A stretch of 64,000 nt of DNA, taken from an uncultured Bacteroides sp. GTDB lineage: Bacteria; Bacteroidota; Bacteroidia; Bacteroidales; Bacteroidaceae. The stretch spans positions 21,545 through 85,544 of the forward strand of contig CAMTOV010000002.1 of the NCBI GenBank assembly GCA_947074235.1, read 5' to 3'. Below, one piece after another: positions 50,002 through 63,909 of the stretch; positions within the stretch are counted from its first letter, which is position 1; every line of letters starts with the position of its first letter. Below the pieces are notes generated by a model that worked only from the letters and a program-made list of their open reading frames with translations, made no database searches and was not told the origin of the DNA. A program made the translations under genes and the position numbers.

Positions 50002-50976
50002 ATGAAAACAGAAAAAAGATATTTAGTACCACACGATTATATGGCAGACCCTGCCGTTCATGTATTCAACGGACGTGTTTATATTTATCCCTCTCACGAC
50101 TGGGAAAGCGGCATAGAAGAAAATGACAATGGCGATCATTTCAATATGAAAGATTACCATGTATATTCTACCGATGATATTATGAACGGAGAGATAGTAG
50201 ATCACGGTGTAGTGCTAGAAGTAAAAGATATTCCTTGGGCAGGCCGACAATTGTGGGATTGCGATGTGGCTTTCAAAGATGGCAAATATTATATGTACTT
50301 TCCACTGAAAGATCAAAACGATATTTTTAGAATTGGTGTTGCCATCAGTGACAAACCTGAAGGACCATTCATTCCACAGCCCGATCCTATTAGAGGAAGT
50401 TACAGCATCGACCCTGCAATCTTTCACGAAGATAAAAATTACTACATGTACTTCGGTGGTTTATGGGGCGGACAACTTCAGCGTTATCGCGATAATAAAG
50501 CTTTAGAAAGTGCCGAGTTTCCCGCCGACAACGAACCTTCTATTCCAGGTCGTGTAGTTAAACTATCCGATGACATGCTACAATTCGCCGAAGAACCTCG
50601 TCCTATTGTTGTATTAGATGAAGAGGGCAAACCCTTAACAGCAGGCGATAACGAACGTCGTTTCTTTGAAGCATCTTGGATGCATAAATATCAAGATAAA
50701 TATTATTTTTCCTACTCTACAGGCGATACACATAATCTATGCTATGGTATTAGCGATAATCCTTACGGTCCTTTCACATATCAAGGTGTTATTATGACTC
50801 CTGTAGTGGGGTGGACTACCCATCATGCTATTGTAGAGTTTAAAGGAAAATGGTATCTATTTCATCACGATTGCGTACCTTCAAATGGTAAAACATGGTT
50901 GCGCAGTTTGAAGGTTTGCGAACTTCAATATGATGAAAATGGTAAAATTATTACGATTAACGGCGAAAGCGAATGA
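50002..50976 (+). CDS. GH43-family glycosidase (beta-xylosidase/alpha-L-arabinofuranosidase), no signal peptide
   Basis: DPAVHVFNGRVYIYPSHD, WDCDVAFKDGKYYMYF, YSIDPAIFHED, FEASWMHK. Confidence 0.92.
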   Translation: MKTEKRYLVPHDYMADPAVHVFNGRVYIYPSHDWESGIEENDNGDHFNMKDYHVYSTDDIMNGEIVDHGVVLEVKDIPWAGRQLWDCDVAFKDGKYYMYFPLKDQNDIFRIGVAISDKPEGPFIPQPDPIRGSYSIDPAIFHEDKNYYMYFGGLWGGQLQRYRDNKALESAEFPADNEPSIPGRVVKLSDDMLQFAEEPRPIVVLDEEGKPLTAGDNERRFFEASWMHKYQDKYYFSYSTGDTHNLCYGISDNPYGPFTYQGVIMTPVVGWTTHHAIVEFKGKWYLFHHDCVPSNGKTWLRSLKVCELQYDENGKIITINGESE

Positions 50977-52967
50977 AGATAAAAACTATATTAGTATGTG
51001 TGATGATCATGACTTCTTTCATCGGTTTAAAAGCCGATGAAGGGAGTCATCTTTGGTTAAAACATCAAACAGGAGCAAATGGTAATATAAAAGTACTTGG
51101 TCGCCTGACACCCACTTTATCATTGGCAGTTCACGAACTACAAAACGGTTGGACGGGCATGCCCATTGTTCTAAAAAAACAAAAAGATAAAAGTCTACAA
51201 AACGAAGGATTTCGTATCAATCCTCAAAGTCATAATATATTAGTCACGTCACCTTCCGATGTAGGCCTATTATATGCAGCTTATTACTTACTTCGCAGTC
51301 AGTCTTGCAATCAACCCCTAACAAATACGGTTATAGACAACCCCTTTTATGAAAGACGCCTACTCAATCATTGGGACAATCTCGATCGAACAGTTGAAAG
51401 AGGATATGCTGGTAAGTCAATATGGGAGTGGGATGTCTTGCCCGATAGTGTATCCGATCGGTATGAAGCATATGCGCGCGCCAATGCTTCAATAGGTATC
51501 AACGGCACTGTACTCAATAATGTAAATGCCTCTCCCGAGATGTTATCAAAAGAGTATTTGCAAAAAGTTGAAACAATTGCCAATATTCTTCGTCCTTATG
51601 GCATAAAGGTCTATTTATCTGTTAACTTTGCCTCGCCCATGGTTATTGGTGGATTACCTACGGCCGATCCATTAGACAAGCATGTTGTTAAGTGGTGGAA
51701 AGATAAAGCGAAAGAAATCTATCAGATAATTCCTGATTTTGGGGGTTTTCTCGTTAAAGCCAATTCTGAAGGGCAACCTGGTCCATGCGATTATCAACGT
51801 ACCCATGCCGAAGGAGCTAACATGTTGGCAGACGCTTTAAAACCCTATAATGGTATTGTGATGTGGAGGACTTTTGTTTATAATCCCGAAGATGCTGATC
51901 GTGCTAAGCAAGCCTATCTCGAGTTCTATCCGCTTGATGGAAAATTTAGAGATAATGTAATATTGCAAGTAAAAAACGGACCGGTCGATTTTCAGCCACG
52001 CGAACCCTATACCCCTCTGTTTGGAGCAATGAGTCATACCAAAACTATGCCCGAGTTCCAAATCACGCAAGAGTATTTGGGTCATGCCAATCACTTAGCC
52101 TATCTAGCTCCAATGTGGGAAGAGTTCAACCAACAGGTCAATCCCGCTTCTCAGAAAGCATTGGCCGGAGTAGCTAACATTGGAACCGATACCAATTGGA
52201 CAGGACATCCATTCGGACAATCCAATTGGTATGCCTTTGGACGTTTGGCTTGGAATCCATATTTAACATCTGAGCAAATTGCCGACGAATGGTTAAAGCA
52301 AACCTTTACAACGGATAGCGCTTTTGTAGAGCCCGTAAAAGCAATGATGCTTGATAGTCGCGAAGCAGTAGTCAACTACATGATGCCATTAGGATTGCAT
52401 CACTTGTTTGCCTTCGGACATCACTATGGGCCCGAACCTTGGTGCGATGTGCCCGGTGCTCGTCCCGATTGGTTGCCATCATATTATCATAAAGCCGATA
52501 AACAAGGATTAGGATTTGATAGAAGTAGTACAGGTAGTGGAGCAACAGCTCAATATCCCGATAGTTTGGCAAAACTATACGATAATATTAATACTTGTCC
52601 TGAAGAATATATTCTTTGGTTTCATCATACACCTTGGGGGCATAAGATGAAAAACGGAAGAACACTTTGGGAAGAACTTTGCTATAAATACAATGAAGGA
52701 GTGCAACAAGCGCGTAGCTTTCAGCAAACTTGGGATGCCGCTCAGCCCTATGTAGATGCCGAAGTTTTTCAACAGGTACAAGAAAAGCTAAAGATGCAAA
52801 CACTCGATGCAATGTGGTGGCGCGATGCTTGTCTGCTCTATTTTCAACAATACTCCGAGATGCCTATTCCATTAGAACTAGAGCGCCCGGTGTATAATTT
52901 AGAAGAGATGAAACAGTTTAAAATAAATATTGACAACCATGAGAATGCACCTCATGGATTTAAATAA
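50973..52967 (+). CDS. GH67 alpha-glucuronidase
   Basis: Signal peptide; RRLLNHWDNLDRTVERGYAGKSIWEW and GHPFGQSNWYAFGRLAWNP are GH67 hallmarks; ATGA overlap with the GH43 gene. Confidence 0.96.
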   Translation: MKIKTILVCVMIMTSFIGLKADEGSHLWLKHQTGANGNIKVLGRLTPTLSLAVHELQNGWTGMPIVLKKQKDKSLQNEGFRINPQSHNILVTSPSDVGLLYAAYYLLRSQSCNQPLTNTVIDNPFYERRLLNHWDNLDRTVERGYAGKSIWEWDVLPDSVSDRYEAYARANASIGINGTVLNNVNASPEMLSKEYLQKVETIANILRPYGIKVYLSVNFASPMVIGGLPTADPLDKHVVKWWKDKAKEIYQIIPDFGGFLVKANSEGQPGPCDYQRTHAEGANMLADALKPYNGIVMWRTFVYNPEDADRAKQAYLEFYPLDGKFRDNVILQVKNGPVDFQPREPYTPLFGAMSHTKTMPEFQITQEYLGHANHLAYLAPMWEEFNQQVNPASQKALAGVANIGTDTNWTGHPFGQSNWYAFGRLAWNPYLTSEQIADEWLKQTFTTDSAFVEPVKAMMLDSREAVVNYMMPLGLHHLFAFGHHYGPEPWCDVPGARPDWLPSYYHKADKQGLGFDRSSTGSGATAQYPDSLAKLYDNINTCPEEYILWFHHTPWGHKMKNGRTLWEELCYKYNEGVQQARSFQQTWDAAQPYVDAEVFQQVQEKLKMQTLDAMWWRDACLLYFQQYSEMPIPLELERPVYNLEEMKQFKINIDNHENAPHGFK

Positions 52968-52975
52968 ATAGAATT

Positions 52976-54151
52976 ATGGAAAAGACCTGGAGATGGTTTG
53001 GGCGCAAAGATAAGATTACGCTCGACATGTTACGCCAAATAGGCGTGGAGGGCATCGTTACAGCTCTTCACGACATCCCTAACGGAGAAATATGGCCGTT
53101 AGAAAAAATTATAGAACTCAAAGATTACATTGAGTCATACGGTTTGCGCTGGTCGGTAGTAGAAAGCCTACCTGTGAGCGAAGCCATCAAGTATGCCGGT
53201 CCCGAACGCGACCAACTTATCGAGAACTATAAAGTTAGTTTGGCCAATTTGGGCAAGGCTGGTGTTACTACCGTTTGCTACAATTTTATGCCTGTGCTCG
53301 ATTGGGCTCGCACTGATATCTTTCATCGCTTGGCCGATGGCACTTATACACTTTACTTCGATAAAGTGAAGTTTGCCTATTTCGATTGCTTTATTCTTGA
53401 ACGTGCCGATGCTTACAAAGATTACGATTCCGAGATATTAAAACAAGCCGAAGAATTGGCTCTTACTATTAGTGAAGAAGAGAAGAATGAACTCATTGAT
53501 ACCATCATTGTTAAAACACAAGGATTTGTCAATGGCAATATCACCGAAGAAGACCGTCATCCGGTAGCTTTGTTTAAGAAGCTATTGCAACTTTATGATG
53601 GAATAGATCGTGATATGCTTCGCGAAAATCTAGTTTACTTTCTTTCATCTATTATGCCTACGTGCGAGCAATATCAAGTCAAGATGTGTATCCATCCCGA
53701 CGATCCTCCATTCCAACTGCTAGGTTTACCACGCATCATCACAAGTGCTAGCGATATTGAATGGATGCTCAAAGCCGTAGACAATCCTCTCAATGGACTC
53801 ACATTCTGTGCAGGTTCGCTCAGTGCCGGACTTCAAAATGATGTGCCAGAGATGGCAAAACGCTTTGCTTCTCGCACCCATTTTGTACATCTCCGCTATA
53901 CAGGGGCTACACCCGATGGTAATTTCATGGAAGTTTCTCACCTCAATAAACGATTAATAGAAGTGATACGTGCCTTCGAATTTACGAATCCCACTTTACC
54001 CATGCGAGTAGACCATGGTCGATTGATGCTAGGCGACGAAGACAAAGGCTACAATGCAGGATATTCTTTCCATGGACGAATGCTCGGTTTGGCTCAAGTA
54101 GAAGGGATGATGGCTGTGATAGACGATGAAAAAAATAATTTAAAACAATAA
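52976..54151 (+). CDS. uxuA: mannonate dehydratase
   Basis: MEKTWRWFGRKDKITLDMLRQIGVEGIVTALHDIPNGEIWPLEKI; CIHPDDPPFQLLGLPRIITSASD. Confidence 0.97.
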   Translation: MEKTWRWFGRKDKITLDMLRQIGVEGIVTALHDIPNGEIWPLEKIIELKDYIESYGLRWSVVESLPVSEAIKYAGPERDQLIENYKVSLANLGKAGVTTVCYNFMPVLDWARTDIFHRLADGTYTLYFDKVKFAYFDCFILERADAYKDYDSEILKQAEELALTISEEEKNELIDTIIVKTQGFVNGNITEEDRHPVALFKKLLQLYDGIDRDMLRENLVYFLSSIMPTCEQYQVKMCIHPDDPPFQLLGLPRIITSASDIEWMLKAVDNPLNGLTFCAGSLSAGLQNDVPEMAKRFASRTHFVHLRYTGATPDGNFMEVSHLNKRLIEVIRAFEFTNPTLPMRVDHGRLMLGDEDKGYNAGYSFHGRMLGLAQVEGMMAVIDDEKNNLKQ

Positions 54152-54155
54152 TATC

Positions 54156-54968
54156 ATGAACGAAATATTTAGTATTGCCGGCAAAACTGCCATTATCACA
54201 GGAGGCTCAGGTGTTCTAGGCAGCAACATCGCACGTGGGTTTTTACAAGCAGGAGCTAAAGTGTTTATTGTAGGTTCACGTCAAGAAACAGTGCAAAAAG
54301 CATTAGACGAACTAAGCCCATTGGGTACAGTTGCTGGTAGCGCTTGTAATGTGCTCAATATCGAAGAACTTAAACAGGTGAAAGACAAAGTCTTAAATCT
54401 ATGGGGAAACATTGATATCCTTGTCAATGCAGCCGGTGGCAATATTCCAGGTGGTACACTCACTACAGAGCAAACTTTCTTTGATATGAAGGTGGAAGAT
54501 TTTGACAAGGTTGTCGATCTCAATCTCAATGGTACTGTATATCCTTGCATGGTGTTTGGCGAAGTCATGGCAAAACAAGGCAAAGGCAGCATTGTCAATG
54601 TCTCATCCATGGCAGCTACCCAGGCTCTTACACGAGTTCCCGGTTATTCTGTTGCTAAGAGCGGTATTGAAATCTTTACTAAATGGCTTGCCACAGAAAT
54701 GTCCTTAAAGTTTGGCGATAAAATACGCGTCAATGCTATTGCCCCAGGTTTCTTTATAGGAAATCAAAATCGTGCAATATTAATCAATCCAGATGGCAGC
54801 CTCACTGAACGCAGTCAGAAAGTAATTGCCAAAACACCAATGCGTCGCTTTGGTGATATTAGCGAGCTAAATGGAGCAGTACAGTTCTTATGCAGCGATG
54901 CAGCAAGTTTCATTACCGGCATATCCATGTCTATTGATGGCGGTTTCAATGCCTTCACTAGCGTATAA
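54156..54968 (+). CDS. SDR oxidoreductase, probable D-mannonate oxidoreductase (fructuronate reductase role)
   Basis: Rossmann TGGSGVLGSNIA, YSVAKSG catalytic motif; directly after uxuA. Confidence 0.88.
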   Translation: MNEIFSIAGKTAIITGGSGVLGSNIARGFLQAGAKVFIVGSRQETVQKALDELSPLGTVAGSACNVLNIEELKQVKDKVLNLWGNIDILVNAAGGNIPGGTLTTEQTFFDMKVEDFDKVVDLNLNGTVYPCMVFGEVMAKQGKGSIVNVSSMAATQALTRVPGYSVAKSGIEIFTKWLATEMSLKFGDKIRVNAIAPGFFIGNQNRAILINPDGSLTERSQKVIAKTPMRRFGDISELNGAVQFLCSDAASFITGISMSIDGGFNAFTSV

Positions 54969-55783: not shown

Positions 55784-56692
55784 CTATAGAATATTCTTTT
55801 TTATGAAATTGTTGATATGCTCTTTCAATTCAAGAGGTTCAATAATAGTAATATCATCTGCCAGCCCAAGTACAAAGCGAGTCACACCCACAAAGTTGCA
55901 AACTTCCGTTTCTAGTATCCACTTATTAGTACCACACGCCTTAATTTCTTTCTCAGCAAGCGGAAACTCCTCCAATAGCAAATTGTGTGATAAAATGCCA
56001 AGTTCCAATTTTATCTTTATCCTGTTGTGACTACTCATTCTGAAGATATCAATAAAACCCACCTTGTGTTCATCACCATACTGCCAGTCTACATTGGTTA
56101 GCTCTGCCTTCTCTATGCGTGCCGTTTTAAAAAGCTTATTGCAATGATCCTTTGTGTCATAGCACCACACCTGAATATAATTCGTAGTAAAAGCAAAAGG
56201 TTCCACTAGTCTATCATTCACCTTAGCACCATTTGCCGATGCGTAGTCATGAAATAGCACCTGTTTCCTCTTCTCTATGCTATCTATTATCACATTGATG
56301 TTATCCGCATTTTTGCCCTTTACCACACAATCAGCCAGCGAAGTCACATTATAAACCGAGGCCAATTTCTTGCGTAAGTTCTGTTTCAGCAGATTATTAT
56401 CATGCAGTCCATCCAGCAATTTCGCAATGATATACGCCTCCTCTTCTGTAAAATGAATCAATTGCGATATATCCTTGAAGTACTTACTCTCTGTACCTAG
56501 TTTATAGATGTTTCCCTCTTTATATACCACAAATCCCACTTCTTTAAATGTGTCCAGATACCGATAGATTGAACGGTTAGATGTTTCCAATGCCTCCGCC
56601 ATCTCCTCAATAGTGTAGTTCACATTGCCAATAAGCATTTTCATCAATCGCAGCAGCCGTTCAAGTTTGGGTTGATCCATAGTAGCGTTCAA
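55784..56692 (-). CDS. HTH/WYL-domain transcriptional regulator
   Basis: N-terminal HTH (NYTIEEMAEALETSNRSIYRYLDTFKEVGF) and WYL-type effector region (DRLVEPFAFTTNYIQVWCYD). Confidence 0.85.
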   Translation of the reverse strand: MNATMDQPKLERLLRLMKMLIGNVNYTIEEMAEALETSNRSIYRYLDTFKEVGFVVYKEGNIYKLGTESKYFKDISQLIHFTEEEAYIIAKLLDGLHDNNLLKQNLRKKLASVYNVTSLADCVVKGKNADNINVIIDSIEKRKQVLFHDYASANGAKVNDRLVEPFAFTTNYIQVWCYDTKDHCNKLFKTARIEKAELTNVDWQYGDEHKVGFIDIFRMSSHNRIKIKLELGILSHNLLLEEFPLAEKEIKACGTNKWILETEVCNFVGVTRFVLGLADDITIIEPLELKEHINNFIKKNIL

Positions 56693-56892: not shown

Positions 56893-56947
56893 ACAAAAAA
56901 AAGGCACTGTCCAATAAATTATATCTATTCATTAGACAGTGCCCTTA
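56893..56947 (-). terminator. terminator downstream of the repeat lipoprotein
   Basis: AAGGCACTGTCCAAT / ATTAGACAGTGCCCTT stem; U8 tract on the minus transcript. Confidence 0.8.
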
Positions 56948-56967: not shown

Positions 56968-58443
56968 TTATTCCATATTAATAAGTTCAATCAGTTCTGG
57001 AGTTTCCCGGTCTCCAATTATTCCATCAGGAGTAAAATGTAATATAGATTCACTAGCATACATATACTGACTATTACTATTATAATATTTAATATGCAAA
57101 GATTGATTTTTAACCGAAGATCCTATTATATCTACCATATAACAATATTTTGAATTGGATTGATAAGCAGTACCAATACCAACACATTTATTGTCACAGA
57201 ATACAGCAAACTGATCACTACTACTAACTCCCTTTTGAAGATTATCAGGTAACATGAAATAAGCTTTCATAGAGAATGGGTAAATAGTCTCAAGATTAAA
57301 AGGAACATTGCTAGGCTCATCAAATGAACCATAATTGCCGTTAGGTACAAAAGGTATCAAGCTTGGCATTTGAAATAAATAAGAGTTGTATGAAGAGTAA
57401 TATCTAACATCAAGTTTTCCAGATGAAGAAATATTCTTCACTAAGATTTTATATATTACTTCATTCTCTTTGTTAGTGATAATCTCTGCTACTCCACAAC
57501 ATTTATTGTCTGCAAACACAGCCATCATATCATTATTTACATCTTGATATTTTTTTAATTCCTCTGGTAGTTGAACATAGACCCACATACTCGATTCAGG
57601 CATAATTGTTAGAACTATAGGATTATCTAAGCTGCCATAAGAAGTTTCTTTACTAAACTGAATTTCTTGATTCACATGATAGTATATTTTTAAATCAGCG
57701 TTATAGTAATTGAACCTTATTATAGGGTTTTCATTTAGTTTTGTCCCAATTTCAAAACTATAAACCTTCTCTCCGTTTAAGTTTACAGATGCTTCTCCTA
57801 CACCTCTACATTCTCCATCTACAAACACAGCCAATACATCATCATTATGTTGTTTTGCATTCGATGGAATAGTAACATGTGCATACATTATATCAGGAAA
57901 TTTACCAGTATTGTCAATGGGCAAAACAATAGGAATTTCAAGTGAACCATACTTTGTGTTCAACTTAAAATCTACCACATCATCACAATAATAGATATGA
58001 TTTAGACTATCATTATAGAATTTAAAAGACAGTTTACCTTTGTCGGTAGACTCTCCCGCTATCATTATAAAATAATACTTTTTATCATCAATAATTCTAG
58101 TTGTTGCCACACCTCTACACTCATCATTTAAAAAAACTGCCATTTCATCTTTATCAGTTTCAAAGCGCGATAGATAATCGGACAAAACAACAACAGCAGT
58201 CATTGAAAAAGTATATTTAGCAGCTTGCCAGGATGGGGCTGCATCACTACTCTTCATGTTGTAAACCCAATTTGGAGTATCTTCACTTCCTGCGAAAGAA
58301 ATATTCCATGCAGGCTTTTCTTGGTATCCGGCTTTATCTACACTCCATGTTGGAGCGTCAAATGTTGTATACTTCTCATCGTCCGAGCAAGAGAACATGA
58401 CAAATGATAATAAAGCAATATAGATTAATGTTATTTTTTTCAT
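56968..58443 (-). CDS. putative surface lipoprotein with 13-aa PxW repeats and four repeated beta-type modules
   Basis: Signal and lipobox VMFSCSDDEK; four ~100-aa repeats with consensus D.[ML]AVF.[DN].[EK]C.G[VI] ... YGS.[DE].P. Confidence 0.85.
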   Translation of the reverse strand: MKKITLIYIALLSFVMFSCSDDEKYTTFDAPTWSVDKAGYQEKPAWNISFAGSEDTPNWVYNMKSSDAAPSWQAAKYTFSMTAVVVLSDYLSRFETDKDEMAVFLNDECRGVATTRIIDDKKYYFIMIAGESTDKGKLSFKFYNDSLNHIYYCDDVVDFKLNTKYGSLEIPIVLPIDNTGKFPDIMYAHVTIPSNAKQHNDDVLAVFVDGECRGVGEASVNLNGEKVYSFEIGTKLNENPIIRFNYYNADLKIYYHVNQEIQFSKETSYGSLDNPIVLTIMPESSMWVYVQLPEELKKYQDVNNDMMAVFADNKCCGVAEIITNKENEVIYKILVKNISSSGKLDVRYYSSYNSYLFQMPSLIPFVPNGNYGSFDEPSNVPFNLETIYPFSMKAYFMLPDNLQKGVSSSDQFAVFCDNKCVGIGTAYQSNSKYCYMVDIIGSSVKNQSLHIKYYNSNSQYMYASESILHFTPDGIIGDRETPELIELINME

Positions 58444-58459
58444 TATACGTAGTTTTTAT

Positions 58460-58485
58460 TTTTGGGGGAATTACTTCCCCCAAAA
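58460..58485 (-). other. intercistronic hairpin between the large LamG gene and the lipoprotein gene
   Basis: TTTTGGGGGAA / TTCCCCCAAAA perfect 11-bp stem, 4-nt loop, 17 nt before the lipoprotein ATG. Confidence 0.75.
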
Positions 58486-58491
58486 TGTTTG

Positions 58492-61400
58492 TTACTTCTT
58501 TTCTACTTTTTTATTTATCACTTCATTATTTGTAATAACTCTAACTAGATATATGCCTTCCACACAATTTGGAGTACAATTAAATGAAGCATAGCCATGG
58601 CTAGTATTCACTTTGTCACTTTGCCACATCATTCTTCCACTCATATCAAATAGTTGTACCATTACATCTGTTTCATAATCTACACTTACTGTAACTGTGA
58701 ATGATTCAGAGAATACAGTTGGATAAACATTAATACCGTTTTCTGTTATAAAGTTAATTGATATAGGTTTCGAAATAGTACCCTTCACATCGTTTGTATT
58801 ATAATTTATAACAGTATTCGATTTAGAAATAATATTACCATCTTTTTGATATCTAAATTCTATATTACCATCATTCTCTTCTCCTCCAATTGTCATGAAG
58901 AATAAATTATTTGAGCCTTGATTGTAAACCTCGAATTTACCTCTTATATCTCCATCAACATATGCCAAAATCATATCTCCCGTAGTTGGTTCTATGCCTT
59001 CAACATCTGCTACTATCGTCATATTGCCCGAGAAGTTTGAATTTACATTATCTAAACTTGTCGATCTAGTTGGAACTATCACATTTTGTCTAATAGTCAA
59101 GTATGGATAAGTCAATTTCGCTTCTCCTCCATTACGTAGCAACATATATCCTTGTCCCGGTCTCATATACTCTAGTCCACCTAGCCATCCTGTAGCAGAT
59201 GTATACATTGCAAATGCATTCTGCGATTTAATGATATCATTTTCTTGCGCTTCATAACTCGACAATGCATCTTTTACAGTTAGATTAGAATAAGGCAAGT
59301 AACTAATGTAATTCCATCCCGAATTGATTTCAAGAGATGTTTTTGATGCATCTATTTCGTCACCATCAATCAATATATCTTGATCTATCGACGATTTTAT
59401 CATAAACATAGATATGTTATCAAAACCTTGAGCTTTTCCTACTGAAGATGTCCAACCATTAGCAGAAGAATATTCCCAGAACTCTTTTTGCTCAGCTTTT
59501 ACTTGATCTGTATTAGTCCATGAGTTATTTGCAAGTATCATTGGTACATTAGCCAAGTTTTCATTTTCAACATTAAATGATACCCAGTTCCAACCTGCTA
59601 CCAAAGGAACACTAGCATAAATAGTCTCTTTAGCATCAAAAATTATAGGGCTTGCAGGGGTACCATAGATTCCATCGTTTATAAACTTAATATAATCTAA
59701 GCTACCATCAATTTCACCTCTATATACAATTCCTGTACTAGCATCATAAATGCGCATTTCAAATACCTCTGAAGAGTTGTCTTTGCTATAAATCGTCAAG
59801 AACGAATAATACATATCATTCAGTGCCTTATACGAGTTGTTGGCTACACCAACACATTCTCCATTATAGAACGCTGCTAACAAATCTTCCTCATCGGTTG
59901 AGAATACACCATTTATTCTGATTTTACCATATACAGACATGTTAAAGTCAAAATCAGCAGGATTAACTGTCCAGTTTGGTACTTCACCATTTACTTTCAA
60001 AGTAAGCTCCATGGTTTCAGATACACCATTTTCACCAGTCAGATAAATGTATTCAGAGTATCTACCTACATTTACTCCTTCATCAATTGTAAACTCTACA
60101 TTTTGTCCCTTTTGTGGTTCCAATTCACCCTTTTCAGGTTTTACCGACAACCATGAAGGTAGTCCATTGATAGTATAAGATTTATTTGTACCACCATTGT
60201 TTACAATTCTTGCATTAAACTTAGCACCTTTATATTTATCAATTGTTAGGTCTACTTCATTGTCAGCCCATCTCAATTGGTTTCTATTAATATATGCACT
60301 CCATCTAATTGTTCCAGCAAGTTCATTTCCATTTACATCTCTCACTCCATCAACTGCAAATGTTACAATCGATTTCTCTAAAGTTTCAATGTCTTTCAGA
60401 TTAATAATTAACCCATCTTCACTGGTTACAAAATCGTATTCAATATTCTGAACCGGTCCTGTTGAGGTAATAGGAGCAGCTTGTGAAGTTCCACCTTCGT
60501 ATAAACCAATCGGGTTACCTTTTAGGCTAATATACTCTGCATCAATACTACTACCAGTATTATCCGACAATGAGAATACTAACTCTTGTTGATTAGCAGG
60601 ATTGATTACATATTCTTCGAATGGATAATACGCCAACAAACCTAGTTCTTTACCACTTGCTGCTACATTACTATTTGAAGATATCAAAGAGTTTGTTAAT
60701 GGAGATTCCCAAATTCTGAATTCATCAATCGACCCTGTTAGGCAATTGCTAAATGTCTCTATTTCCCCATTTTCTCCCGAAGATTTCTTCAAAGCACCAA
60801 TATACATTCTACTTTCAGCAATTGATCCTAATTCCGTACTATTGAAATAAGTTCTCAATTCATTATCAATAAATATCTGAGCATTGCCCACATTTCTATT
60901 TACCGATAAAGCAAAATGATGCCATTCATTATCAAGATAATCACCGTCAACGTCTACTTTATAATTATTGTTTTTGAAGAAAAGTTCTCCATTTTCAAAT
61001 CCAATAAAGAATCGTCGTGAAGCATCTCCAACTTCCGTATCATCACCAGTACCATTGCATATCAATGCAGCATTACCTTGAGATTTGTCAGCTCTGAACC
61101 AGAATTCCATAGTGAAATCTCTTTCCTTTTCAATCGGCATTTCCGAGCTATTGATTGCAACATAACTATTGCCGTCTAGGCTTAAAGCAAAACCTTCTGG
61201 AGTAGCCCACGATGCAGTCATCAATGCATTGTTTGCTCTTGCCTTATCTTTCACTATATCACCTTTACCTTCGTTCATCGGATAGTAGTTGACCAATGCA
61301 GGTTCCATACCCGAAAGAATTGACAATTGTTCTGACTTAACCTTAGCTTTTGTTTTAGCCTTTTCCCAAAGTCTCAGTTCGTGCATTTTTCCCGAGTAAT

Positions 61401-63909
61401 ACTTATCTTGATTAATGCTACGTCCAATCTCAATATTTCCTATTCCCTTATAAGAGTTCTTCAATACTTGCGGTGCATCAGCATCGGCGTTGTAGTACAA
61501 TTCAACAGTCTTATTACTATTGTTTACCACAGCTGCCACATGTGCCCACTCATTTACTTTAAGATCTATCGGAGTAGACAAATAATCATCTTTCGATATA
61601 GAAAGTTTCAATCTATTATCTGCAGTCAATCCAAAGTTTATATACTTAGACACATCACCGTGGCTAAACAATACAGCTTCTCGATTGATTTCATCCGGAT
61701 TAATCCACAACTCAATAGTTAAGCTCTTTTCTGCTAAATTCTTAGCAAATTCATTCTTAATGAAGTTAGATTCACCATTGAATGATACAGATGTACTATG
61801 ATCACCTTGCGAACCATTCTTAATCGCAGTCACCTGAATATTAGAAGAAGTAAGATAACCACCCTCTATAGGTTCATTAAATGTCAATCTTATTTCATCC
61901 TCTATATCCAATACACCATCAGCAGGTTGAGTATTTCCATACAGAGTAGGCAATACCATGTCTTTTACACCGCTTACAATAGGCGATTCGTAGCTAACCT
62001 CGGTTGCTTCACTTATAACACAATAGCTGACCGCCCTAATATCATAAGCCTGATCTTCTTTTCCTACAAAATTGCACGATACAGTAGCATCTTCAATTAA
62101 TTCATGTATGTTTGGATCTACCACTTTAATAGAATCCGCATAGAATGTTTTTAATACTGTCCATAAGCCAGATTCAGATGCTGGTTTGTATTGAACTTCA
62201 ATTCTATCAAAATTTCGGTAGTTCACATCAAAACCATCCACTATGATTGGCAGATACGCAATACCTTCACTGTTCTTATTACTTTTCGTATTCAATACCC
62301 ACTTGTCAGTAGGAGTCTTAATGTTAACAGGAGTACTACCTGGAACAAAATGAGCATTAATCTTCACAGTATCAATTATATCATCACATTGACATTGTGA
62401 ATGCAATAAAAGTTCCAAGTTTTCATAATCATAGGCCATAGCGCCCATTTTTACTTCTAGCGTTTTTATCAATAAATCACCTGCTTTAACCAAGAAAGAG
62501 CGACCATCCGATAATGGCACACCATCTATCGACAATTTTGCACCATTTGGATTCGAAGCATCATTCAGTCTTAGCGTGTACCAAGCATCTGCTTTAGCTT
62601 CCGATTCATTCGACATTTTCAATGTGAAAATTGCAGGTTCGCTAGATGGTACATTCTTCACAGTAAAAGGTTCAGCATCAATTTTTGGCACTTCAACCTT
62701 TACAGTACTGTTATTGATTAGCGTACCAGGCATATAATACTCAGTGTATACAGGCCCTTCATATGGACAAGACGTTGCTCCACCTTCTGTGTAGAATATA
62801 AAGCTACCACCTCTTTTATCGAATGCTTCATCATTGCCAAGAGTGTTATCTGTATCTATTCCATCGCCTGAGTTTAGTCCTCCAGTATTTCCCTCTTTTA
62901 CAACAGAAACACTCAAGTAGTCAAAGCTACCTTCTTCTGCTAGTACAAAACCTATTGCTTCAGAAATACCGTCACCTGTAGAAGAGGAGTAACCTCCTTT
63001 ACCTCCTGCTTTTTCTGAGAACGCAACTTTTGCACCAAATCCGTCTATATGGAAACCAAGTTGACCTAATAAACCAGCACCTGCTATAAATTCATAATTC
63101 TTAGTGTTGCTATAGCTATAGTTATACTCTTCCGAATAGTTGATAGTAGCACCAGCTTGGAATGAATAATTTTTTCTTGTAGGATTATTCTTATTTTCAG
63201 CTTTGATTCTTTCATTTTCAGCTAATATTTTAATCCAGTTTTCAATCGAGTGATTGTAGTAACTAATGGAATCTGTAAGATTATTTCTTTCATCTGCAGT
63301 TAAATTAGCAGGTATAATAGTTTTATAACTATTGCCATCAAATGTACTTGCATCTAAATTTGAACTACCAAACAACTGATCGTCAGGTTCGAATTTCGAT
63401 AAATATAAAACAGTCTTTAGGCTATCAGCTGCGAATTGAGCTTCTGCCTCCGAAACACTTGGTAATAAAAGATAGCTATTTCTCGTTTCTTTCAATTTGG
63501 GCATTAATACATTTTTAATATGTATCTGAGGGTATGCAAACAAAGTACCAAAGTCCTTACCTACCGATAGAGCCTCTCCTTGATACAATACTAGGTCATC
63601 AGCAAAGTATTTTATTATTCCATTTCTATCTGAGGCTTTCAAATCAGAATAATATCCTAAAGCTATCTCATCTACTATACCTACTAACATGTTGGTTGCA
63701 TTTCCTATTATCAAGTCACCATCAGCACCAACAAATAGAGGATCTTCACTTGTTTGGAATCCCGTAATGAAAGTTATATTTTCTGTTGTCATTTTTTCAT
63801 CATGACCCTCTTCTTTGTTTACAACTTGTTCTCCAATGTTATTTTCATTTTCTATTTCAGTTATTTTCATTTCACTAACTCCTGTGCTTTTTGTTGCCTT
63901 AATTCTCAT
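58492..63909 (-). CDS. large LamG-domain protein with T9SS type A C-terminal sorting domain; N-terminus apparently incomplete
   Basis: Two LamG-like domains (SLTIELWINPDE..., DFTMEFWFRADKS...), BACON-like segment, two copies of the D.[LI].A..[NV][GD].[CI].G module, C-terminal VYPTVFSESFTVTVSVDYETDVMVQLFDMSGRMMW...GIYLVRVITNNEVINKKVEKK. No signal peptide in the ORF. Confidence 0.88.
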   Translation of the reverse strand: MRIKATKSTGVSEMKITEIENENNIGEQVVNKEEGHDEKMTTENITFITGFQTSEDPLFVGADGDLIIGNATNMLVGIVDEIALGYYSDLKASDRNGIIKYFADDLVLYQGEALSVGKDFGTLFAYPQIHIKNVLMPKLKETRNSYLLLPSVSEAEAQFAADSLKTVLYLSKFEPDDQLFGSSNLDASTFDGNSYKTIIPANLTADERNNLTDSISYYNHSIENWIKILAENERIKAENKNNPTRKNYSFQAGATINYSEEYNYSYSNTKNYEFIAGAGLLGQLGFHIDGFGAKVAFSEKAGGKGGYSSSTGDGISEAIGFVLAEEGSFDYLSVSVVKEGNTGGLNSGDGIDTDNTLGNDEAFDKRGGSFIFYTEGGATSCPYEGPVYTEYYMPGTLINNSTVKVEVPKIDAEPFTVKNVPSSEPAIFTLKMSNESEAKADAWYTLRLNDASNPNGAKLSIDGVPLSDGRSFLVKAGDLLIKTLEVKMGAMAYDYENLELLLHSQCQCDDIIDTVKINAHFVPGSTPVNIKTPTDKWVLNTKSNKNSEGIAYLPIIVDGFDVNYRNFDRIEVQYKPASESGLWTVLKTFYADSIKVVDPNIHELIEDATVSCNFVGKEDQAYDIRAVSYCVISEATEVSYESPIVSGVKDMVLPTLYGNTQPADGVLDIEDEIRLTFNEPIEGGYLTSSNIQVTAIKNGSQGDHSTSVSFNGESNFIKNEFAKNLAEKSLTIELWINPDEINREAVLFSHGDVSKYINFGLTADNRLKLSISKDDYLSTPIDLKVNEWAHVAAVVNNSNKTVELYYNADADAPQVLKNSYKGIGNIEIGRSINQDKYYSGKMHELRLWEKAKTKAKVKSEQLSILSGMEPALVNYYPMNEGKGDIVKDKARANNALMTASWATPEGFALSLDGNSYVAINSSEMPIEKERDFTMEFWFRADKSQGNAALICNGTGDDTEVGDASRRFFIGFENGELFFKNNNYKVDVDGDYLDNEWHHFALSVNRNVGNAQIFIDNELRTYFNSTELGSIAESRMYIGALKKSSGENGEIETFSNCLTGSIDEFRIWESPLTNSLISSNSNVAASGKELGLLAYYPFEEYVINPANQQELVFSLSDNTGSSIDAEYISLKGNPIGLYEGGTSQAAPITSTGPVQNIEYDFVTSEDGLIINLKDIETLEKSIVTFAVDGVRDVNGNELAGTIRWSAYINRNQLRWADNEVDLTIDKYKGAKFNARIVNNGGTNKSYTINGLPSWLSVKPEKGELEPQKGQNVEFTIDEGVNVGRYSEYIYLTGENGVSETMELTLKVNGEVPNWTVNPADFDFNMSVYGKIRINGVFSTDEEDLLAAFYNGECVGVANNSYKALNDMYYSFLTIYSKDNSSEVFEMRIYDASTGIVYRGEIDGSLDYIKFINDGIYGTPASPIIFDAKETIYASVPLVAGWNWVSFNVENENLANVPMILANNSWTNTDQVKAEQKEFWEYSSANGWTSSVGKAQGFDNISMFMIKSSIDQDILIDGDEIDASKTSLEINSGWNYISYLPYSNLTVKDALSSYEAQENDIIKSQNAFAMYTSATGWLGGLEYMRPGQGYMLLRNGGEAKLTYPYLTIRQNVIVPTRSTSLDNVNSNFSGNMTIVADVEGIEPTTGDMILAYVDGDIRGKFEVYNQGSNNLFFMTIGGEENDGNIEFRYQKDGNIISKSNTVINYNTNDVKGTISKPISINFITENGINVYPTVFSESFTVTVSVDYETDVMVQLFDMSGRMMWQSDKVNTSHGYASFNCTPNCVEGIYLVRVITNNEVINKKVEKK

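Follow-up and report, generated by a model that had tools for sequence, protein, structure and literature searches.

A giant type A T9SS protein and its module-sharing neighbour form a gene pair conserved across the Bacteroidota

The window, which is the whole stretch of 64,000 nucleotides analysed here, ends at the end of contig C2 of its source assembly (G000:C2, 85,544 bp). Close to that end, a giant ORF is followed by a 48-bp gap and a partner ORF, both on the minus strand, and the ORFs, strand and spacing of this co-directional pair are all as originally claimed. The features of the locus are listed below.

58492..63909, minus strand: giant gene, 5'-incomplete, 1,805 aa visible (ORF)
61945..63837, minus strand: giant-specific core, used as the probe for finding relatives (no Pfam family)
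61339..61743, minus strand: LamG domain 1 (Laminin_G_3; Pfam)
60700..61122, minus strand: LamG domain 2, approximate limits (second Laminin_G_3 stretch, with Laminin_G_2 at residues 988-1057; Pfam)
59992..60207, minus strand: BACON-like stretch, under the family cut-off (Pfam)
59638..59946, minus strand: giant module copy A, residues 1322-1424 (HMM)
58747..58986, minus strand: giant module copy B, divergent, Cys lost, residues 1642-1721 (HMM)
58495..58728, minus strand: T9SS type A C-terminal sorting domain (TIGR04183, 35.4 bits against a cut-off of 23)
58460..58485, minus strand: intercistronic hairpin without a U-tract in the 48-bp gap (dG -17.2, z -4.2)
56968..58443, minus strand: partner gene, 491-aa lipoprotein with four modules (ORF; four HMM domains)
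58387..58443, minus strand: lipoprotein signal peptide with Cys at residue 19, MKKITLIYIALLSFVMFSC followed by SDDEK (sequence, pattern match and inspection by eye)
57910..58215, minus strand: lipoprotein module 1, residues 77-178 (HMM)
57598..57900, minus strand: lipoprotein module 2, residues 182-282 (HMM)
57289..57594, minus strand: lipoprotein module 3, residues 284-385 (HMM)
56971..57282, minus strand: lipoprotein module 4, residues 388-491 (HMM)
56900..56946, minus strand: terminator-like hairpin with a T8 tail, closing the transcription unit (z -8.7)

The LamG and T9SS assignments that had been read from the giant protein are borne out by Pfam and TIGR04183, and the sorting domain is of type A; the PF18962 score of the same protein (24.7 bits) falls just below its cut-off of 27. 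The T9SS translocon is encoded in the genome of the window (SprA_N, 692 bits, contig C57), as is one PorP (contig C3). The giant of the window is 5'-incomplete, since its ORF starts 91 bp from the contig end, no signal peptide is found in the visible ORF (P0002), and complete relatives are longer, with 3,203 aa (L030), 2,712 aa (L031) and 3,207 aa (L036, Coprobacter secundus). Relatives range from about 2,100 to 4,900 aa, with most complete ones at about 2,700-4,150 aa, and in directly aligned loci they reach about 900-1,450 aa farther upstream than the window giant. The contig stops short of the 5' part of the gene, which puts any Sec signal peptide out of view. An in-frame stop just 5' of the giant ORF is either real or a contig-end error, and no homology is detected in the last ~137 bp.

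The source assembly comprises 316 contigs and is 78% complete. It contains a second giant on contig C75 (L032), a paralogue of 1,691+ aa that is 67% identical to the window giant across 314 residues and ends exactly at a 55-nt exact repeat common to both, a break pattern as expected from an assembly fork between paralogues. The giant on C75 is preceded by a TPR/AraC-type regulator and by a TPR protein that has an aspartyl-protease-like end; AraC-type regulator genes are located upstream of the giant in both C75 and L036.

The partner in the window (P0001) has no Pfam family above its cut-off. A SoxZ match (Pfam, 1.1e-3, below the cut-off) corresponds to a stretch within a module, has no other support and was rejected. 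The Cys that ends MKKITLIYIALLSFVMFSC follows a short hydrophobic stretch, as judged by pattern and by eye, so that the protein carries a lipobox, and the acidic SDDE after this Cys resembles known Bacteroidota surface-export signals, in line with a predicted surface exposure. No TIGR04131/CHU_C domain (the type B CTD) is found in P0001 with Pfam or NCBIfam. Four module copies were originally described in the lipoprotein, and the HMM recovers all four across residues 77-491, the highest count among the lipoprotein partners here.

The module is about 100 aa long and is present in two further copies in the giant, which lie at about 59946-59638 and about 58986-58747 in agreement with the original prediction. 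An HMM built from the four lipoprotein copies only finds both giant copies, with i-Evalues of 1e-12 (copy A) and 1.1e-7 (copy B), which indicates that module sharing is not due to chance. Pairwise z-scores against shuffles are 13-22 among the lipoprotein copies, 7-14 between these and copy A, and 2.5-9 between these and copy B. The two giant copies had been described as related modules; both match the lipoprotein HMM, but they are of different types, as the Cys of the GECRG loop is present in 85% of giants for copy A and in only 15% for copy B. A disulfide link between partner and giant through this conserved cysteine was considered and rejected as a general mechanism, because modules devoid of any Cys make up 20% of those in partners and 12% of those at copy A. 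Neither the module nor the giant core is covered by any Pfam or NCBIfam model.

The original prediction named neighbourhood in relatives as its test. A scan of one genome per species yielded 159 loci with giant relatives, 80 of which were read, and loci from sampled relatives were added. A module-bearing gene lies directly downstream on the same strand in 75 of the 80 loci with visible downstream DNA (73 from ORF calls and two, L052 and L108, from a six-frame search), mostly after a gap of 1-260 bp, while the module occurs in 4 of 835 other ORFs of the same loci. The partner is absent from five loci (L070, L080, L084, L096 and L113), three of which are copies in one MAG, and the partner region of L040 is lost to a contig end. 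When the giants are clustered at 40% identity, the partner is kept in 22 of 27 clusters. The pair ranges over Bacteroidales, Prolixibacteraceae, Cytophagales, Flavobacteriales, Saprospiraceae and others, and its carriers include the non-pathogenic isolates Cryomorpha ignava (L114) and Coprobacter secundus (L036). The pair is thus real and phylum-wide, and it probably belongs among T9SS surface-adhesin assemblies. No description of it was found in literature searches of open-licence papers, and the combination of a giant with a module-sharing partner appears not to have been described before.

In a phylum-wide sample, in which a limited number of candidates was considered per genome so that counts are lower bounds, the giant core is found in at least 12 of 396 genomes and the module in at least 9 of 297, seven of the latter with a giant core. 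The module occurs without a giant core in a 2,661-aa ORF with two modules in G188 and in one ORF in G279. Among the loci of this sample, a module gene adjoins 8 of 13 module-bearing giants (L160 via module positions) and none of five giants without modules, and the partner is also missing from several distant loci (L154, L155 and L158). Among the sampled congeners of the window genome (G001-G018), no giant core match of the window is found; SprA is present in the window genome and in only 2 of these 18 species.

Nearly every complete giant contains two modules by HMM, and partners contain one, two or four. The module tree splits partner, copy A and copy B modules with 5 label changes, compared with 49.5 in shuffles, and the three types hold their positions across the phylum. 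A single origin of the partner modules, as one clade, is not rejected (p-AU 0.41), and the tree gives no support to the partner module being a recent copy from its own giant. These results also bear on domain shuffling, in which the module would serve T9SS proteins as a generic spacer and the pair would simply be two adhesins with no joint function. The occurrence of the module in a few unrelated proteins (among them a dockerin-like protein in L033 and a short T9SS protein in L034, with a further case in L035) favours such an explanation, but the adjacency in 75 of 80 loci, the near-confinement of the module to giant-bearing genomes and the phylum-wide retention of the three module positions make it quite improbable.

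The intercistronic hairpin of the window has counterparts elsewhere. In 22 of 26 loci with gaps of 45-260 nt, the gap between giant and partner folds much better than shuffles (median z -5.5), as do 26% of 155 same-strand control gaps in the same loci (p 2e-9, which is nominal because the loci are related). The stems occupy the same position with unrelated sequences across lineages, and of 24 long stems only 2 have a T-run; where the gap is just a few bases long, a hairpin does not fit. Strong hairpins without a U-tract are seen in the window and in L030, L036, L055, L060, L083, L086, L098, L100, L105 and L112. The gap hairpin is probably an mRNA-stability or processing element through which different levels of giant and partner could arise from one transcript.

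A comparison of the partners reveals differences in their attachment. All look secreted; about 48 carry a lipobox, 14 a type B CTD and six a type A CTD, and five are unclassed owing to start-codon or truncation problems or an unclear signal. The original description of the partner as a lipoprotein therefore applies to the window and to gut Bacteroidales partners generally, and it names one of several anchors. A PorP/SprF gene directly follows 13 of 13 type B partners whose contig continues (the 14th lies at a contig end) and directly follows no other partner (Fisher p 1.6e-13, nominal since the loci are related); in L031, the PorP/SprF and type B identities are confirmed by Pfam and NCBIfam. 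In nine lipoprotein loci, a protein with an OmpA C-terminal domain follows the partner instead of PorP/SprF. No PorP/SprF gene adjoins the partner of the window, whose downstream neighbour is a regulator-like ORF.

In a tree of the giant core, the lipoprotein loci of gut Bacteroidales fall in one supported clade along with several partnerless loci, with the window sister to Coprobacter secundus, and the distant pair L156/L157 has lipoprotein partners as well. The three anchor states require at least six changes on this tree, although the exact counts are soft because the tree is a quick one with long branches. The anchor differs while the module stays, and the data do not reject a single origin of partner modules, so that on sequence grounds the partner looks like an old gene whose mode of attachment changed and whose module was retained.

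In published work, PorP-like proteins serve as binding partners, and probably as anchors, of type B CTD proteins (PMC9143113), and substrates with a type A CTD end up statically anchored or released (PMC12618676). Given a type A giant beside a module-sharing neighbour that mostly has a type B/PorP or lipid anchor, an anchoring or organising role of the neighbour towards the giant, exerted through the modules, is the most economical reading. We therefore propose, with moderate confidence, that the partner acts as a surface anchor or an assembly factor for the type A giant, contacting it by way of the modules they share, with these two genes at the core of a T9SS-dependent operon for a surface adhesin. 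The giant, with its LamG domains and type A CTD, would be exported by the T9SS. The partner, made from the same transcription unit, would be held independently at the outer surface, by a lipid anchor here and by a PorP/SprF-bound type B CTD elsewhere, and would display the giant's own module there. Its modules may then dock on the giant, with copy A or the region around it as the likeliest site, and so retain or organise a type A substrate that would otherwise be set free or depend for its placing on the generic PorV/PorU route alone; the intercistronic hairpin would probably permit different levels of giant and partner from one message. Co-transcription, module-module docking, retention and an adhesive function are what we infer from the locus. 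The structural part of the original prediction is confirmed, and its functional part, in which the two proteins would bind each other or a common ligand, is plausible.

Several observations count against an anchoring role. The six partners with a type A CTD add no different anchor, and there are partnerless loci, both the five of 80 and the distant ones, as well as modules in unrelated proteins. Additionally, type A proteins of P. gingivalis are anchored through A-LPS without a partner.

A transient role can also be considered, in which the partner caps the giant's modules during export and helps T9SS exit or folding without serving as a lasting anchor. The tight linkage within one operon, the possible need of very large substrates for a dedicated factor, and the arrival of type B partners with their own PorP shuttle are consistent with this role. 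It nevertheless seems improbable, because a transient factor has no need of the surface anchor that is kept in most lineages, and the known type A route requires only PorV (PMC12618676).

Structure predictions bear on a further alternative, which is the main rival to the anchor model: giant and partner would be co-expressed and would separately bind the same external target, such as a glycan, through the module, with no contact between them. The AlphaFold2 model of the module 2 segment (57592-57912) is all-beta with a pLDDT of 93, and it has weak matches in the PDB, the best of which include several CBM20 starch-binding domains (TM about 0.5, E 0.013 or worse). This fold, the frequent binding of ligands by LamG domains, and partner copy numbers of 1, 2 and 4, like those of avidity-tuned binders, point to a common ligand. 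On the other hand, the resemblance to CBM20 is weak, no aromatic binding residues are conserved in the module consensus, and a pure binder would have no need to adjoin the giant at almost every locus or to be almost restricted to genomes with a giant. We consider a common ligand unlikely. Membership of the module in CBM20 was rejected on the same two points, no significant fold match and no conserved aromatic residues, and the similarity is limited to an all-beta topology on present evidence.

The model of the giant core (pLDDT 78) shows long strands and helices followed by Ig-like domains, and its Foldseek matches are mostly Ig-like tandem proteins. The long strands have low-confidence tips (residues 232-299), where the alternation of polar and apolar residues peaks, as might be found in a toxin-like protein with a pore-forming core from which the partner protects the producer. 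Equal alternation peaks occur within Ig-like strands, however, which makes this signal non-specific, and the top 50 PDB matches include a single pore-former, a binary-toxin translocase with a TM of 0.10 and an rmsd above 40. With no killing or immunity gene context seen, a pore-forming core was rejected and the toxin-like explanation is very improbable. As predicted models, neither the module nor the giant core gives a function.

The original term "two-component" holds for the conserved pair and is too narrow for some loci, where a MAT-like fibre gene is added upstream and a gene for an OmpA-domain or PorP/SprF protein downstream. A MAT-like N-terminal domain is encoded by 22 of the locus ORFs; every one of these genes lies beside or near a giant, 19 of them directly upstream of it (18 once a duplicate locus is removed). 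The upstream genes carry a collar, VGIGT repeats or an S74-like end. Upstream fibre genes of this kind are seen in L031, L036, L037, L044, L049, L060, L063, L074, L078, L083, L146-L151, L156 and L157. The best match to NF053851 (MAT) scores 50.6 bits (E 1.8e-13) over the N-terminal half of the model only, below the cut-off of 60 bits, so that, as judged from sequence, the upstream genes carry a homologous domain and are not curated MAT members. The MAT fibre was rejected as an exclusive part of the system: of 297 genomes, 85 have MAT-N domains and most of these 85 lack a giant, which makes the fibre an accessory.

Similar N-terminal domains are found in the MAT fibres of Bdellovibrio bacteriovorus, where the surface element that they bind awaits identification (PMC10769870). 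In comparison with those fibres, the scores of the upstream genes in the relatives studied here are below the NCBIfam cut-off, and in the window the contig stops before any such gene could be seen. For Bacteroidota, the adjacent giant is a candidate for this surface element. A broader possibility is a general docking platform, in which the partner anchors the giant and the giant carries the upstream-encoded trimeric fibres, giving a phylum-wide fibre-bearing assembly. We regard this extension as rather doubtful; if true, it would offer a candidate for the kind of surface element thought to be bound by MAT N-terminal domains. The pair connects T9SS giants with MAT-like fibres.

The closest known systems are SprB-SprF and other pairs of type B CTD and PorP-like proteins (Flavobacterium johnsoniae; P. 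gingivalis PG1035-PorP-PorE). One branch of the present system likewise has a type B partner followed by PorP/SprF, sometimes with an OmpA/PorE-like gene near, and a very large T9SS surface protein in the locus. Unlike in those pairs, the giant carries a type A CTD in the loci most similar to that of the window, a type B CTD is found on its smaller neighbour, and in gut Bacteroidales a lipoprotein replaces the type B/PorP part. The type A adhesin RemA resembles the giant in combining a type A CTD with lectin-like domains; the giant differs in its conserved module-sharing neighbour and in a core without a Pfam family. The module and the giant core are thus two protein regions without a Pfam or NCBIfam model that are retained across the phylum. 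The current type A/type B scheme leaves the placing of a type A substrate unexplained. The same partner module attached by a lipid tail, a PorP-bound tail or a type A tail constitutes a natural experiment, and a constant module with a varying anchor gives a testable model of how a type A T9SS substrate could be held at a specific place.

Beyond the terminator, the next gene downstream of the partner is the regulator-like ORF at 55784-56692 on the minus strand, of WYL type by eye. On the strand opposite to the pair, 50002-54968 (plus strand) appears by eye to be a hexuronate/xylan-use gene run, with glycosidase-like, alpha-glucuronidase-like, mannonate dehydratase-like and short-chain dehydrogenase genes.
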